Source: Pseudomonadales bacterium (lineage in GTDB: Bacteria; Pseudomonadota; Gammaproteobacteria; Pseudomonadales; Azotimanducaceae). From it: 64,000 bases of DNA. A program made the translations under genes and the position numbers. Below are positions 15,708 through 23,624 of the stretch, one piece after another (position 1 is the stretch's first letter; each line of letters starts with the position of its first letter). The stretch covers positions 1 through 64,000 of the forward strand of contig JAESSY010000036.1 in the NCBI GenBank assembly GCA_016763855.1. Direction: 5' to 3'. Below the pieces are notes generated by a model. The model was not told the origin of the DNA. It worked only from the letters and a program-made list of their open reading frames with translations, and made no database searches.

Positions 15708-16826
15708 CTAAGCAATATCCAGAGCGCTAAATAATCGAGATTTGAATTCGGCCTCTCCAAATTTATTTTGCAGCCGCTCATAGGCGTCATCAATTAACTT
15801 CTGGCTTTCTACGCCAGATCGCCCCAATGCTAATTTTAGTTTTTCACGAAGGTCGTCGGCATTATCGACATCAAAAAGCGTAGCTGAACTCCCTAGCACT
15901 TCCTTTGGCCCTGGTGCATTTGATGAAACGATAGCGACTCTAGCTTGCATGGCTTCTAAAAGCACTATGCCAAAAGCCTCCTCAGAATTTGAGGACAAAA
16001 CGAAAATGTCATAGGCGTTTAAGTATCGATAGGCATCTGACAGATAACCCGCAAAAATGACCGAGGCCTCAACATCCAATTCCGACGCACAGTGGCGAAG
16101 CTGGGATTCTTCTGGTCCACTCCCAATTATGAGCAATTGACTTTCATCTATTCCAAGTTCGGAAAAAGCCCGAATTAGTATCTTGTGATTTTTCTTTTTG
16201 ACCAAGCGTCCAATGGTTCCGATGACGAAACTGCTAGTCTTCAGACCCAGTTTTTCTCGGGCATCAGCTTTAGATATAAGCGTCTCAGCCCTTAGCTTAG
16301 GGACAGTGTTATATAAGGTATAGAGCCTTTTTTCGTGAAGTAGCGAGGGACATCTTAACGCAATCTCTTCTGTTACCACTTTAGAAACCCCTGCAACGCG
16401 TATCTTTTTACCCACGACTTTAAAAAACAAACGACGGGGCAATCGTAGAAACATATTGTATTCATGAGCGACTGCCAGAATTCGAGGCATCGTAAAAAAC
16501 AGACTCAAAATGCCCACTATATACAGCGCCTTATAGCGATGAGCGATAGCGATATCATAATGATTTCGCCGCAGCAGCTTTGCCATTTTGCACAACGTGT
16601 TAAGTTTTAGTCCTCTTAAGCCTTGCTTTGATTTTCCTTTTTCAAGGAAGAGGACGCGAGTTCCACCGACACGACGAAGCGTATCATAATCTTCCACACC
16701 TTTTAGAAAAACGGTTGTGACTTCATGCCCCTCAAATGCTGCTGCATATTGGCGACAAACTCCAATAAAGGGGCCTTTAGTATCATGGCAAACTTGAAGT
16801 ATGGATAATTTCTGTTGTTGGCTCAT
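15708..16826 (-). CDS. GT4-family glycosyltransferase, probably LPS core
   Basis: FVIGTIGRLVKKKNHKILIRAF, SSNSEEAFGIVLLEAMQARVAIVSSNAPGPKEVL (E-x7-E). Confidence 0.88.
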   Translation of the reverse strand: MSQQQKLSILQVCHDTKGPFIGVCRQYAAAFEGHEVTTVFLKGVEDYDTLRRVGGTRVLFLEKGKSKQGLRGLKLNTLCKMAKLLRRNHYDIAIAHRYKALYIVGILSLFFTMPRILAVAHEYNMFLRLPRRLFFKVVGKKIRVAGVSKVVTEEIALRCPSLLHEKRLYTLYNTVPKLRAETLISKADAREKLGLKTSSFVIGTIGRLVKKKNHKILIRAFSELGIDESQLLIIGSGPEESQLRHCASELDVEASVIFAGYLSDAYRYLNAYDIFVLSSNSEEAFGIVLLEAMQARVAIVSSNAPGPKEVLGSSATLFDVDNADDLREKLKLALGRSGVESQKLIDDAYERLQNKFGEAEFKSRLFSALDIA

Positions 16827-16841
16827 TCGAGGAATCTGCCT

Positions 16842-18302
16842 TTATGACGAGGATAGTTTTGCCAACAATCCTTCAAAGCGGCTTGATAGTTCTGGTTGAT
16901 CCTCCCAGTTTTTCATAAACCGGTCGAGATCTTTATCGAAAGCTCGCTTAAAGCTTTCTGCATTTTTGTACTCTCGCATTGCATCAAGATCAATAATGAC
17001 AGGGCCTTCCTTAGCCATCACAAAATTAGTCGCTTTCAAGTCGCCATGAGCGATCTTGCTTTTCGAGAGGTGATAAAGCATGGAAGCCAGCGCTTCTAGA
17101 TCACCATCTTCTGAATTTACTGTTGGAAGATAGGCAAGCGCATCTGGCCCCTCAATATACTCGGTAATAAAATAGGCCCTATTTCTCAACGGACCCAGGC
17201 GGTGTTCGAGCATGGCGACGGGTTTTAGGGAACGAATCCCTAAAAATTCCATGTGATAGGCATTGGACCAAGACACCCAGGCTCTGGTTTTTTGAAAGGC
17301 TCTTTTCATCCCATGCCACATACTCTTAATGTTGTATCTCTTTATCACTAAAGATCTATCACTCAATTGAACAAGGGCAACGGTTGCTGAGTTACCATCC
17401 TTTAGAATACGCCCAGCTTCAATATACTTGTCGGGATCATTGAGTAGTGCCTGCATTTCACTATTATAATGCTTCCTTTCGCAAACCATAAAACGGCTCA
17501 GTTTTTTATGACATACGAAGCGCGTGCAATCTCTGAAAGCCTTTTCCAAATAATCTTTTTTTCTGGACTCTCTACTTTGTGTGACATCTTCGAATAGGGT
17601 AATCACCCTCTCTGGGTCAGGGCCCCAACCTCTTACTGCTTCATAGGCCGGGAAGACTATTTGTATTAACTCGTCAAACTTCGGAAAAAATTGCGCAAAG
17701 AACCAACTCAAATTTTCAATGCTGTCATGGTCAGCTAGTGGGGGCTCAGACTTCCGAATAATGCCACCACCATCGATAGTGTATATTCTATTGTGACGTA
17801 TTAGAAAATTGCCAAGATGAATATCCTTCTGCACCACACCTTGATTGTGTAGCTTGGCAATAATGATCATTGCCCTTGTTAAAACGTCGACTCTATCTGC
17901 ATCTTCCTTCGCTTGATCCCAGCTCTCCTGCAGACTAATCGACCCATCAAGATATTCAAAAGCAAGTATCTTGCCTCGACCATCGAGAAGCTCACCTTGC
18001 CACAATAATTCAGGGGTACGCACACCAGCACCGGCGATATAGTCAATCCCTTCCTTCTCCTTTCCGGCATATCGACTCGCAGTTCTGCCGAGAAAAGTTT
18101 TTACGAGGATGGCTTGCTCACCAAGATAGGCTAACGCCACTAATCGTTTGCCAGGTAAAAGGCGGAGGATTTTTGCGAAAGTAAGCACGATCTTTTCGCC
18201 ACCCTGTTTTCTGACCCTCAAGTCAAAAGGCAGCTCCACATCGCGGTGAGCTTCGATCAGTAATTTTGAATCTACGATTGCCATACTGCTGATAAACCCC
18301 AT
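16842..18302 (-). CDS. Protein with two tandem kinase-like domains (WaaP/Kdo-kinase-like)
   Basis: Domain 1: ILVKTFLG, QKDIHLGNFLIRHNRIYTIDGGG. Domain 2: LVIKRYNIK, AHGDLKATNFVMAKEGPVIIDLDAM. Confidence 0.8.
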   Translation of the reverse strand: MGFISSMAIVDSKLLIEAHRDVELPFDLRVRKQGGEKIVLTFAKILRLLPGKRLVALAYLGEQAILVKTFLGRTASRYAGKEKEGIDYIAGAGVRTPELLWQGELLDGRGKILAFEYLDGSISLQESWDQAKEDADRVDVLTRAMIIIAKLHNQGVVQKDIHLGNFLIRHNRIYTIDGGGIIRKSEPPLADHDSIENLSWFFAQFFPKFDELIQIVFPAYEAVRGWGPDPERVITLFEDVTQSRESRKKDYLEKAFRDCTRFVCHKKLSRFMVCERKHYNSEMQALLNDPDKYIEAGRILKDGNSATVALVQLSDRSLVIKRYNIKSMWHGMKRAFQKTRAWVSWSNAYHMEFLGIRSLKPVAMLEHRLGPLRNRAYFITEYIEGPDALAYLPTVNSEDGDLEALASMLYHLSKSKIAHGDLKATNFVMAKEGPVIIDLDAMREYKNAESFKRAFDKDLDRFMKNWEDQPELSSRFEGLLAKLSSS

Positions 18303-18461: not shown

Positions 18462-19304
18462 CTACAAATAAGATAACAGATGAGATGTTCTCCCATGCTC
18501 TTTCAAATATAACTTATGAGCCCTCCGGACAACGGCAGACCAAAATTTGTCCCCATCTTCGAAAGTCTCCCTAAGGGTTCTTCCAGTATATAACTTCACA
18601 AACCTCAATATATCGTTACGCGTTAGGCCGGTATCCGCTGCTGAAAACAACAAGCCCCCAAGGTCCTTAACACGCCATCTTGCAGGTGTTTGATCTCTAA
18701 TCTGCGCTCGATGTAAATCAATTAAATAAACAGTCAGCTTCTTATCCCTATTCTGCACCATTATTTTCTCAATAACTGTGACGCAATCCATATCTATAAG
18801 AAAATGGCAGAGATAAAAATCACGATGATTTATCCCCGAACCGTGCATTTCTTTTGCTACATTTGCTAACTTATCGATCAATTTCCTGCGTAAACTCACA
18901 CTTATTTGGTTCTTTACGCTCAGATCTTCCAGGCTTTGGGTATGTTCAAGTGCCTTTGTAATTATGCAGGAATGGAGCTTGGCAGGGTTACCTCCTTGAT
19001 TCGTGTAAGCGACAGGCGTCATAGTATCGATCCCCAACTCTCGGAGGCGATTAACCGCTAACCATTCATTCTTCGCGCCTAGCACTGGCAATCTCAGCTG
19101 GCTTAAGTTTTTAAATATCTCCTTCCACCCAACCCCAAAATGAAGCTTCAAAAAATATGCATCTTGGCCCACTAGAAAACGTAATGTTCTTCGACCTTCA
19201 AGTTCACGATAAACCTCACCCTTTGGTTTAGAGGCATCTTCAAAGAGGTTCTCATCGCTGAGCGTTCCCGCAAGTTCTGCTCCAAGATAGTGAGTCGACA
19301 TCAT
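18462..19304 (-). CDS. waaP: LPS core heptose(I) kinase
   Basis: FLKLHFGVGWKEIFKNLSQLRLPVLGAKNEWLAVNRLRELGIDTMTPVAY, INHRDFYLCHFLID, VYLIDLHRAQIR. Confidence 0.93.
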   Translation of the reverse strand: MMSTHYLGAELAGTLSDENLFEDASKPKGEVYRELEGRRTLRFLVGQDAYFLKLHFGVGWKEIFKNLSQLRLPVLGAKNEWLAVNRLRELGIDTMTPVAYTNQGGNPAKLHSCIITKALEHTQSLEDLSVKNQISVSLRRKLIDKLANVAKEMHGSGINHRDFYLCHFLIDMDCVTVIEKIMVQNRDKKLTVYLIDLHRAQIRDQTPARWRVKDLGGLLFSAADTGLTRNDILRFVKLYTGRTLRETFEDGDKFWSAVVRRAHKLYLKEHGRTSHLLSYL

Positions 19305-21553
19305 TGTATCGTCGCTGCAATAACATCGACTGCTCGATCCGGCATGCTATAGATATCCGCAAATCGTCCAAATTTGATACCATTTTGCTTCCACATAGAA
19401 GCATCCTCAGACAACAACATCTCCTTCAGTAAGGTATCGAAATTGCTCTGTTGATAAGGGGATTTAACCAGCCTCCCTGCCTTAGCTTCTTCAATATAGT
19501 GAGCATAACCACAGATATCCGTTGCCAGTACGGGTAATCCTGCAACTATTGCTTCAAGCAACACTGTGCCGGTATTTTCTGCGTAAGCAGGGTGAACCAA
19601 TAAATCGGATCCTTGTAAAAAACGTGGTATATCATTTCTGCCACTTAATATGGTGACCATGCCCTGTACTTCAAGACGTTTCGCCATTTTTAAGAAAGTC
19701 GAAGGATTATCCTGCCCAATAGCAATCAGATGCGTCTTGTTGCGTAGCGTTTCCGGTAACTTGGACAACCCCAACAATATTCTGTCTAACCCTTTTGTGA
19801 TAAATCCAGAGCCAACCATCAACAACAATTTGTGATCATGCGGAATTGAAAATTCAGATCTAAGTGAGATACGGATGTCTTCGCTATTATCTGGCGCCAT
19901 TCGATCTTTAGATATTCCCGGCGGCAAGAGATGAAATCGATTCAGGGGGGTTTGATAATACTTCTCGAAAAAGGGTTGCTGAACTTCGGAGATCATTAAT
20001 ATTTCGGTTTTCGATTCTACCTCGAACACAGACTTCTCAAAATAAGAGAAATGTCTATAACGAGGAATTAGGCGATAGAGTGTACTTCTCTGAGTTTGAG
20101 CCTTTTCCTCATAGCAACCATCCGCTGCATAATAGATGTCCAAGTTTGGCATTTTGTTGAATCCAATGACTCCCGACACTGGATTTTGATCAATATGTTC
20201 TTCTACCCAAGCAGCGTATCGTTCATATTTTTTGTGGTTGGTTATTGCTGTCACTGGGACGATGACAAGTTCGATATAGTCCGGCACATCTCCTTGCCAC
20301 GAAAGTGTATATACCCGAATTTGATATCCGCGATCCCTACATTTTCTTGCCACTCTAATAAAGTCTCGTTGCAGACCGCCAAAAGGAAAATACTTAAACA
20401 AGCAGAATGCTAACAAGCCTAAACTGCCGCGCTCTGACGCTGCTACATTTTCAATTATCCTCGCAGCTTCCTGAGACAAAGCATAAATGTTGGCTGTCTG
20501 AGAAAAATGACGACCATTTTCTCGCCATTCTGCCTTCCTGTTACTGAGTAATATTCGCACTAATTTTTCATTTAATTCAGTCTGTTGAAAAGGGCTCGAA
20601 ACCAACTCGCCAACATCCGCATCTACCACATAGTGACCATAACCGCATACATCGGTTGCAAGCACAGGCAATCCTGAAACGATAGCTTCTAGTAAGACTA
20701 TGCCAGCCGCCTCATCAACCGCAGGATGTAAAAGTACGTCCCCAATCAGCATCAACTCTGACACATCATTTCGCCCAAACATAAAAGTTACGATGTCTGA
20801 AATACCGAGAAAAAAAGCAAGGCGCTCAAAGGGAGCACTATTGTCTTCACCAACCACCAGAAAACGGGTTCGTTTTCGGACGTGAATGGGTAATGATTTC
20901 ACTGCGTAGAGCGCTCGTTTCAAGCCTTTTTTAATAAAACCGGACCCTACCATAAGCACTATATATTCATTTTCTTCGAGCCCTAGCTCTTGTCGCTTAG
21001 CGGATCGTATTTCATCAGCATTTGCCGGTGCCACGCGTTCTCTTGAAATTCCTGGGGGTAAAAATTTTAGTCTGGATTCTAAAGTTTGATAATGTTTTTT
21101 GAAGAAAGGCTTTTGAACTTCTGAAATCATCAAAATCTCTGTTTTATTTTCATTTCCAAAAACGGCCTCTTCGTACTCTGCAAAATGTTTATATCGCGGC
21201 AATAAACGATAAATCCATGATCTTTGACTATGGGCTTTCTCCTCATAACAGGAGTCTGCTGCAAAATAGACATCAAGATTCGGCATCTTGTTGATACCAA
21301 TATTACAATCCACTGGGCGCTGTGCCAGAGAGGTATGAACCCAAGCAGAATATCTTTTGTAGCGAGTGTGATTCGTGAAGGCTGTCACGGGCACAATGAT
21401 CACCTCAAACCCCACCGGAATATCACCTACCCAACTCAAACAATAGACTCTTATCGAATGACCTCTTTTTTGGCAATCGAGCGCAATACGCATAAAATCT
21501 CGCTGCAAACCGCCATAGGGGAAATATTTATAAAGGCAAAACGAAAAATTCAA
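19301..21553 (-). CDS. Tandem fusion of two WaaG-type LPS glycosyltransferase (GT4) domains, 750 aa
   Basis: MNFSFCLYKYFPYGGLQRDF and, about 380 residues later, LLAFCLFKYFPFGGLQRDF; both halves carry MPNLD.YFAAD/YYAAD, SCYEEKA/GCYEEKA, LMISEVQ, LPPGIS, and E-x7-E (EAAGIVLLE, ENTGTVLLE). Confidence 0.92.
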   Translation of the reverse strand: MNFSFCLYKYFPYGGLQRDFMRIALDCQKRGHSIRVYCLSWVGDIPVGFEVIIVPVTAFTNHTRYKRYSAWVHTSLAQRPVDCNIGINKMPNLDVYFAADSCYEEKAHSQRSWIYRLLPRYKHFAEYEEAVFGNENKTEILMISEVQKPFFKKHYQTLESRLKFLPPGISRERVAPANADEIRSAKRQELGLEENEYIVLMVGSGFIKKGLKRALYAVKSLPIHVRKRTRFLVVGEDNSAPFERLAFFLGISDIVTFMFGRNDVSELMLIGDVLLHPAVDEAAGIVLLEAIVSGLPVLATDVCGYGHYVVDADVGELVSSPFQQTELNEKLVRILLSNRKAEWRENGRHFSQTANIYALSQEAARIIENVAASERGSLGLLAFCLFKYFPFGGLQRDFIRVARKCRDRGYQIRVYTLSWQGDVPDYIELVIVPVTAITNHKKYERYAAWVEEHIDQNPVSGVIGFNKMPNLDIYYAADGCYEEKAQTQRSTLYRLIPRYRHFSYFEKSVFEVESKTEILMISEVQQPFFEKYYQTPLNRFHLLPPGISKDRMAPDNSEDIRISLRSEFSIPHDHKLLLMVGSGFITKGLDRILLGLSKLPETLRNKTHLIAIGQDNPSTFLKMAKRLEVQGMVTILSGRNDIPRFLQGSDLLVHPAYAENTGTVLLEAIVAGLPVLATDICGYAHYIEEAKAGRLVKSPYQQSNFDTLLKEMLLSEDASMWKQNGIKFGRFADIYSMPDRAVDVIAATIQ

Positions 21554-22575
21554 GTTAATCTACTCGTAGCGATCAATTTTGTCAGGGAATCCAAAACCCG
21601 TTCCGGCGTCATGTTTTCAAAACAGGGTGGGTAAATATTACCTTCTTCTGTCATGTATCGACATTGATTTTTCAGACAGGGTATACACGCCAAATTATCT
21701 GAAACAAGCACCTTTGAATGAATACCAATAGGACCTGTCAAATCTGGGTTTGTAGGGCCAAAGAGTCCAACCATTGGCAGATTCATCGCATTAGCCAAAT
21801 GCCCCAATCCCGTATCAACACTCACCAAGCCAGAACAGCTACCCATAATCTTAACCAAATCTGTGATGCTCTTAGGCGACAAGAGCTCAGACCCTTCGAT
21901 ACCATTTATGATGCGTTCTGCACGTGCTTGTTCTATTTCATTTCCATAGGTCAAAGTCACATCAAATCCACTGTCGCCTGCAAGTATGGCAAGCCTGCGC
22001 CAGTAATGTTCTGGCCAGTGCTTCGACGCCCAGGTCGTCCCGTGAAGGAGGAATAACTTAGGCTTGGTGTTCGTCGACGGCTGCAATGTAATACCATATT
22101 GAAGCTGCATACCTTTAAGGCGATAACTAAAAATTTGGGCAAACAAGGATCTCGTTTTTTCAATCGCGTGTGATTTTTTTTCGACGGTATAGCACTTATC
22201 ATAGAAAAAATGGCTGGCCGGTTCTTTTGATGAAGCCCTGTCTAGACCATGAACTTCTCCCTTTGCCATCTTTGCCAAGAGCGCGCTTTTCATGAGCCCC
22301 TGAGCATCAATAACGAGATCATATTTCTGCTCTCTCAATCTGGCACAAAATGCTTTTATCTCTGGTAAGGAATTTAACCAGGATTGACGCCATCGCCTGA
22401 TTGAAACCGGTATGGCAGATGCTACCTTCTGGTTAAGTAGGGGTAATTCAAGGAAGGATTCTTCAACCATCCACGTTAACTCAATCTCAGGTCTAACACT
22501 GAACAAGTCAGCCACTGCGGGCAAAGTATGAATCACATCCCCAAATGATGAGGTTTTTACGAGCAATACTTTCAT
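21550..22575 (-). CDS. waaC: LPS heptosyltransferase I
   Basis: MKVLLVKTSSFGDVIHTLPAVADL, LLHGTTWASKHWPEHYWRRL, VSVDTGLGHLANAMNLPMVGLFGPTNPDLTGP. Confidence 0.93.
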   Translation of the reverse strand: MKVLLVKTSSFGDVIHTLPAVADLFSVRPEIELTWMVEESFLELPLLNQKVASAIPVSIRRWRQSWLNSLPEIKAFCARLREQKYDLVIDAQGLMKSALLAKMAKGEVHGLDRASSKEPASHFFYDKCYTVEKKSHAIEKTRSLFAQIFSYRLKGMQLQYGITLQPSTNTKPKLFLLHGTTWASKHWPEHYWRRLAILAGDSGFDVTLTYGNEIEQARAERIINGIEGSELLSPKSITDLVKIMGSCSGLVSVDTGLGHLANAMNLPMVGLFGPTNPDLTGPIGIHSKVLVSDNLACIPCLKNQCRYMTEEGNIYPPCFENMTPERVLDSLTKLIATSRLT

Positions 22576-23624
22576 GGCGATTCGCAATGAGCCTCTATGA
22601 TCGGAATCAGAGATTCTGGCATTAGATCGACAAGACAAGCTTTATGCTTCAGGGGGCAATCTCTTTTGAAACAAGGACTACATGATAAGTTTAACGAGAC
22701 TATTTCAAGTTTGTTCGTCAACGGCGGTGTAAATTCCGGAGAGGTAGAACCATAAATAACGGTCGTATGACACCCGACAGCGGCAGCGATGTGCATCAAA
22801 CCAGAGTCATTCGAAACCACCATGGCACAAAGACTGAGTAAATCGATGACATCAAGCAGGCTCGTTTTACCCGTTAAATCAACACAGAATTCAAGTGTGC
22901 TCATGTTGATCAGCGATCTAATATTTTGCGCTGTATCTTGGTCTTTCGGCCCACCAAAAATCCAAACTTGCATGCCTCTCTCTATCGCCTGATCTGCCAG
23001 TTTTGCATAACGATTCTCAGGCCATTTTTTGGCATCACCAAACTCAGCCCCAGGGCAGATAGCCAGTATGGGTTTCTCTAAACTCAAATTAAACTTTTTA
23101 ATTAGTTTTTCACGCTTGTGTTCATTCACCGTCAGTGAAGGATTCTCAAGCTTGGGAACTTTCGCGCCTATTTCAACACCCAGACTGGCAAAACGATCAA
23201 TCATGCGCGGCAAAGTCCGCTTGTTTAGCATTCTCATATCGTTAATCAGGCCGTATCGGTACTCTCCACGAAAACCTGTTCGCAGTGCTATGTCAGCATG
23301 GAAAGGGACAAGCGCTGACTTAAGTGAATTGGGAAGAATAATAGCCTTTCGATAACCATTGAGTTTTAGTGATCGACCAATCATCTTCCGCTTTCCCAAT
23401 CCCAATTCGCCATGAGCAAGATCAAATCTGATACCACGGGAGACTTCTGCCATTCTTGAAACCAGAGGAAGTGTTGCAGGCGGCGCAAGAACATCTATTG
23501 CTGTATCAGGATGCCTTTTACGCAATACCTTGTACAAGGTTTGCGCCATCACCATATCACCGACCCAAGCAGGGCTTACGACAAGGATGCGATTGCTGGT
23601 CTTCAGACTATCGTTATCTATCAT
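22572..23624 (-). CDS. waaF: LPS heptosyltransferase II
   Basis: ILVVSPAWVGDMVMAQTLYKVL, CPGAEFGDAKKWPENRYAKL, VSNDSGLMHIAAAVGCHTTVIYGSTSPEFTPP. Confidence 0.93.
   Translation of the reverse strand: MIDNDSLKTSNRILVVSPAWVGDMVMAQTLYKVLRKRHPDTAIDVLAPPATLPLVSRMAEVSRGIRFDLAHGELGLGKRKMIGRSLKLNGYRKAIILPNSLKSALVPFHADIALRTGFRGEYRYGLINDMRMLNKRTLPRMIDRFASLGVEIGAKVPKLENPSLTVNEHKREKLIKKFNLSLEKPILAICPGAEFGDAKKWPENRYAKLADQAIERGMQVWIFGGPKDQDTAQNIRSLINMSTLEFCVDLTGKTSLLDVIDLLSLCAMVVSNDSGLMHIAAAVGCHTTVIYGSTSPEFTPPLTNKLEIVSLNLSCSPCFKRDCPLKHKACLVDLMPESLIPIIEAHCESP

Follow-up and report, generated by a model that had tools for sequence, protein, structure and literature searches.

WaaG sets the first sugar of the outer core of lipopolysaccharide (LPS) and is pursued as an antibiotic adjuvant target (PMC10579960). 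With the help of one engineered mutant, its donor specificity was assigned to five residues of the pocket (PMC10579960). In the E. coli enzyme (EcWaaG), which uses UDP-Glc, these residues are F97/R208/A282/A283/I285, and in the P. aeruginosa enzyme (PaWaaG), which uses UDP-GalNAc, they are Y97/T208/N282/T283/T285; the hydrolysed donor switched when all five were swapped in PaWaaG. R208 was also proposed to contact the acceptor phosphate in addition to the donor (PMC10579960). As for other core enzymes, WaaA is a bifunctional LPS transferase adding two Kdo residues (PMC6286764), and in C. jejuni only the glucose on heptose II is lost when lgtF has a late frameshift (review). Little was found on two-domain core transferases in the open literature searched, and no description of a WaaG-WaaG fusion was found in the open literature searchable here.

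The window, i.e., the whole stretch of DNA that was analysed (64,000 nucleotides of contig JAESSY010000036.1 from a Pseudomonadales bacterium), contains an LPS core gene cluster with a tandem WaaG gene, designated waaGG. The following genes were annotated:

15708..16826, minus strand: another GT4 glycosyltransferase of the cluster (profile matches)
16842..18302, minus strand: two-kinase-domain protein of 486 aa, putative core kinases (Pfam APH/ABC1 at residues 67-181, Kdo at 314-467)
18462..19304, minus strand: waaP (rfaP), heptose kinase, downstream of waaGG with a 4-base overlap (NF011703, 4.1e-96)
19301..21553, minus strand: waaGG, tandem WaaG-WaaG fusion gene, 750 aa, TTG start at 21553
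21550..22638, minus strand: waaC, heptosyltransferase I, upstream of waaGG with a 4-base overlap (TIGR02193, 2.1e-88)
22572..23624, minus strand: waaF, heptosyltransferase II (TIGR02195, 6.4e-130)

The gene order is waaF-waaC-waaGG-waaP, followed by the 486-aa kinase protein and the further GT4 enzyme; lpxL, hldE and waaA also lie within the window. The gene waaGG starts with a TTG that shares bases with the stop codon of waaC (TTGA), and at its other end its stop codon likewise runs into the start of waaP. Based on these 4-base overlaps on both sides, waaGG is part of a tightly packed operon and has the waaC/waaF/waaP neighbourhood of a WaaG gene. The order waaF-waaC-waaG(G)-waaP is identical in tandem and single-domain relatives. 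The 486-aa protein, which adjoins waaP and is kept in relatives by synteny, itself resembles a fusion of an APH/ABC1-like part and a Kdo/WaaP-like part.

The waaGG frame runs on the minus strand from 21553 to 19301 with 752 open codons between stops; therefore, there is no stop/start at the junction. Pfam Glycos_transf_1 matches the protein twice (3.7e-62), and the two halves align with each other without gaps over 365 residues at 53% identity (E = 6e-153). The same architecture, with both WaaG domains intact in one open frame, was read at the loci of 49 genomes of the bacterium's family, from 15 genera. The earlier note's description of a single 750-aa frame with two full WaaG domains is thus borne out, and one uninterrupted WaaG-WaaG chain with two full GT4, GT-B domains at 19301-21553 is confirmed. 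The parts of this chain are as follows:

20450..21547, minus strand: N-terminal WaaG domain, aa 3-368, pocket F97 K208 A282 A283 I285 (phmmer against PDB; AlphaFold pLDDT mostly >88)
20414..20449, minus strand: linker NVAASERGSLGL, 12 residues, aa 369-380, stop-free
19316..20413, minus strand: C-terminal WaaG domain, aa 381-746, pocket Y97 T208 N282 T283 T285, numbered as in PaWaaG (aa number minus 378; phmmer against PDB, AlphaFold)
20687..20713, minus strand: E-x7-E motif of the N half, E281-E289, EAAGIVLLE
19553..19579, minus strand: E-x7-E motif of the C half, E659-E667, ENTGTVLLE

That the gene is an assembly artefact, or two genes translated separately, is extremely improbable. At the DNA level the halves share 55% identity and no exact stretch of more than 10 bases, which makes a repeat-assembly error implausible, and this low identity together with the occurrence of the same fusion in 49 genomes rules out an artefact. 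The only alternative start near the junction, an in-frame TTG at codon 380, could begin a separate second half; however, no AGGAGG-like site was found upstream of it, relatives carry other residues at this position, and the frame is uninterrupted in 49 independent genomes.

Based on phmmer against PDB, residues 3-368 and about 380-746 match WaaG structures, with both halves scoring 437-503 bits to 8b5s and 382-393 bits to 2iv7. In the AlphaFold model (mean pLDDT 91.5) there are two GT-B folds, and a helix whose last residue is 374 is followed by a short linker; the best PDB matches of the model in Foldseek are the P. aeruginosa and E. coli WaaG (TM 0.94-0.97 on target). The relative placement of the two domains is left open by the model, since its pTM is 0.54. 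By sequence and fold each half is thus a WaaG, while the protein as a whole departs from the single domain of about 370-380 aa expected of this enzyme. We file each half as a WaaG domain and the whole protein as a variant architecture.

R18, D19, R173, K209, E281 and E289, the catalytic and UDP-binding residues compared, occur in the N and the C half alike; at position 13 the N half has Y and the C half F. The E-x7-E motif had been noticed from the first reading in both halves, and the other catalytic residues checked are likewise intact. The further claim that the N half has diverged at the motif does not hold, as EAAGIVLLE is identical to the motif of E. coli WaaG. Both halves are therefore probably catalytic, as had been suggested. 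Across the tandem proteins, mean pairwise identity is 66% for the N halves and 64% for the C halves, and the two appear to evolve at similar rates.

A single catalytic half with the other serving as a scaffold seems to be the case in two related genera, g58 (L095, L097-L102, L118-L122) and g6 (L093, L094, L103), in which the second WaaG domain is about full length and has lost K209 and the E-x7-E glutamates. These degenerate domains, in about 15 genomes, are candidate pseudo-glycosyltransferase domains, and they lend this reading some credit for waaGG as well. For the window protein and 48 other tandems it is nevertheless very unlikely, given the intact catalytic set and the similar conservation of both halves.

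The pocket residues of the two halves were compared with the published determinants. The C half reads YTNTT, identical to PaWaaG in all five positions, and fits the UDP-GalNAc-specific P. aeruginosa type, to which the N half does not belong. The N half reads FKAAI and equals EcWaaG in four of the five positions, with K for R at 208, so it also falls outside the UDP-Glc-specific E. coli type. This lysine speaks against UDP-Glc as its donor, since the E. coli assignment rests on R208. Overall, the N half scores 437 bits to PaWaaG vs 393 bits to EcWaaG; its E. coli-like pocket is therefore convergent or ancestral and not a sign of close descent. The N half may work like the E. coli type, but it is not filed as a member, its descent also being separate. 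Taken together, the pocket residues strongly suggest a change of donor specificity between the halves. The earlier note had raised such a change, of acceptor or donor, as possible; a donor shift is upheld at this strength, but not the N-half motif given as a sign of it. GalE is encoded in the genome. A search for a PIG-L deacetylase like the DnpA of P. aeruginosa gave none in the genome, so that a GalN core like that of P. aeruginosa is not predicted.

The difference between the halves was then followed through the tandem proteins. The codons of the main position are:

20930..20932, minus strand: codon for K208, K in all N halves (column scan of tandem rows)
19796..19798, minus strand: codon for T586, which corresponds to T208; T in every C half (column scan of tandem rows)

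In the tandem rows, all N halves (50/50) carry K at position 208 and all C halves (50/50) carry T, and this is the only column wholly fixed for different residues in a scan of about 368 columns over 49 tandems; position 360 shows a near-fixed split of L vs M. One public record (L033, a Caspian Sea MAG) matches G168/L037 in all tabulated features and was counted once in the scan. Among the window-type fusions (26 proteins), positions 283 (A vs T) and 285 (I vs T) are also split, so that three of the seven differential columns fall among the five published determinants (hypergeometric p = 4e-5, a guide only, as the sequences are related, although the determinants had been defined by others before the scan). 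The second type, T2 (22 proteins), carries S282, G283 and I or M285 in its C half, and the donor of this half is therefore less certain. Since many N halves of relatives have N282 or T282, and Y97, consistent splitting appears only at 208, 283 and 285. In 56 WaaG sequences from outside the family, residue 208 is T in 47, R in 6, M in 2 and L in 1, and K208 was not seen among them.

These data bear on the possibility that both halves catalyse the same reaction, the fusion being a matter of dosage or processivity with specificity unchanged. Two WaaG domains with intact catalytic residues are what this reading would predict; however, every tandem has a fixed difference at donor-specificity position 208, and the N and C types remain apart in the trees, whereas drift or conversion would be expected if the copies were redundant. 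We regard it as unlikely.

To place the architecture among genomes, 207 genomes of the same family were searched, and 111 gave a strong match. Among the 49 tandem genomes, one (L048) has an in-frame TAG in the second WaaG domain, which is a sequencing error or marks a broken gene. Outside the family (about 730 genomes, from searches of 392 genomes of the order and 369 of the class), there was no match covering both halves and no second match at threshold, in a search that scored few candidates per genome and could thus miss rare tandem cases; all loci fetched from outside the family have one WaaG domain. The WaaG-WaaG architecture is thus common within one family, where it is lineage-wide, and unseen outside it in the sampled genomes. 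Of the concern that it might already be known as common, only the part concerning this one family applies; waaGG is a new architecture variant of the known enzyme WaaG, undescribed in the open literature searched.

Other arrangements were also observed in relatives. In-frame WaaG-WaaP fusions recur across several families (L013 and L117 in the same family; L056, L069, L070, L072, L074 and L078 in other families of the class). In genus g6, two loci (L028 and L096) each encode a single chain of about 900-930 aa made up of a WaaG, a truncated second WaaG and a WaaP. One single WaaG domain fused to WaaP (L143, genome G171) has a match to the window protein that spans from the N half into the C half; it sits on a very long tree branch and is possibly a recombinant of both waaGG halves.

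The origin of waaGG by duplication and fusion, proposed from the first reading, is supported by the trees. With a better model, PaWaaG falls with the C halves, and the N halves form a group with most single-domain WaaGs of the family (support 97/71 on the N side, weak on the C side). A first FastTree run had placed N1 beside C1; under the better model the N halves joined each other, as did the C halves. The fusion types T1 and T2 differ in linker length (12-16 vs 8-10 residues). Two independent fusions were considered, and one duplication gave the better tree; T1 and T2 may nonetheless go back to two separate duplications (AU p 0.34 and 0.38 for the two-duplication trees). On the simplest reading, one duplication and fusion took place in the family ancestor; the C half is then orthologous to ordinary WaaG, the N half is a new paralogue, and later losses left K-type and T-type single-domain genes. 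A single K-type WaaG only is found in about 24 relatives, including a single-contig genome (G064), and T-type single genes in a few. Genome G101 carries both types as separate genes (L138 T-type, L139 K-type), and such separate genes argue for different jobs of the two types. Proteins that have lost the C half, or in which it is degenerate, do not always retain K208: the N-lineage domains of g6 and the single-domain N-lineage proteins L125 and L141 carry T208.

Based on the above results, we suggest that waaGG probably encodes a hetero-bifunctional glycosyltransferase of the LPS core that works with two donors. The donor-choosing residues differ between the copies, a difference conserved in at least 15 genera, and two different sugars are therefore probably added by one chain. 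An ancestral P. aeruginosa-type waaG would have duplicated in the family ancestor, with the copies fused head to tail. The C-terminal domain would have kept the ancestral pocket and is predicted to use UDP-GalNAc or another UDP-sugar fitting the PaWaaG pocket. The N-terminal domain would have become a paralogue with an E. coli WaaG-like pocket, lysine replacing arginine 208, and is predicted to use UDP-Glc. We predict that both domains work as retaining (alpha-forming) GT4 enzymes and that each binds its own UDP-sugar. The predicted acceptor is an inner-core heptose or the first sugar on it, after WaaC and WaaF have acted and near WaaP. As relatives with only the K-type exist, among them the single-contig G064, the K-type may act on the heptose itself without the T-type sugar; the T-type would then extend the K-type's sugar or act at a second site. 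The fusion would hold the two steps in a fixed ratio and at the same membrane place. The full proposal, in which glucose-type and GalNAc-type sites on a short tether add two different sugars per binding event and the split is held family-wide by residue 208, is plausible but tentative, its chances falling a little short of even.

It is less probable, though worth serious consideration, that both halves are active on different acceptors, such as heptose I and heptose II or different glycoforms, giving non-consecutive sugars from donors that may be other UDP-hexoses. The contact proposed for R208 not only with the donor but also with the acceptor phosphate (PMC10579960) would fit this, as would the K-type-only relatives noted above, in which the K-type would act independently of the T-type's sugar; two of the differential columns, however, are the donor-pocket residues 283 and 285.

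In comparison with known systems, the closest solved relative of both halves by score is P. aeruginosa WaaG (PDB 8B5Q, 8B5S, 8B62, 8B63; PMC10579960). Its five-residue pocket is identical to that of the C half, with which it is grouped in the trees, and the order waaF-waaC-waaG-waaP is the same in the relatives clustering with it; but it is a single domain of about 370 aa without a K208-type partner. E. coli WaaG/RfaG (PDB 2IV7, 2IW1) shares F97, A282, A283, I285, EAAGIVLLE and a GRNDVSELM stretch with the N half. It is also a single domain and has R208 where the N half has K208, so the likeness lies in the pocket and not in descent. The WaaG-WaaP fusions of related genomes likewise join WaaG to a core enzyme of the same operon, but the partner is a kinase and not a second WaaG. 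WaaA adds two inner-core sugars with one chain, as proposed for waaGG, but has a single active site and a single donor. The LgtF of C. jejuni is a two-domain, bifunctional fusion in which one polypeptide is likewise responsible for two inner-core sugars, but its domains come from other glycosyltransferase families.

The strongest of the five determinant positions, 208, is fixed differently in every tandem and offers a natural test of the specificity code; if the proposal is true, the specificity split is held by this residue across a whole family of environmental bacteria. For LPS core synthesis, waaGG would provide a defined example in which an enzyme was duplicated, fused and then specialised. 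Neither WaaA nor LgtF is a WaaG duplication with two donor pockets, and in waaGG evolution appears to have run the same experiment as the engineered PaWaaG mutant, with two pockets in one chain.
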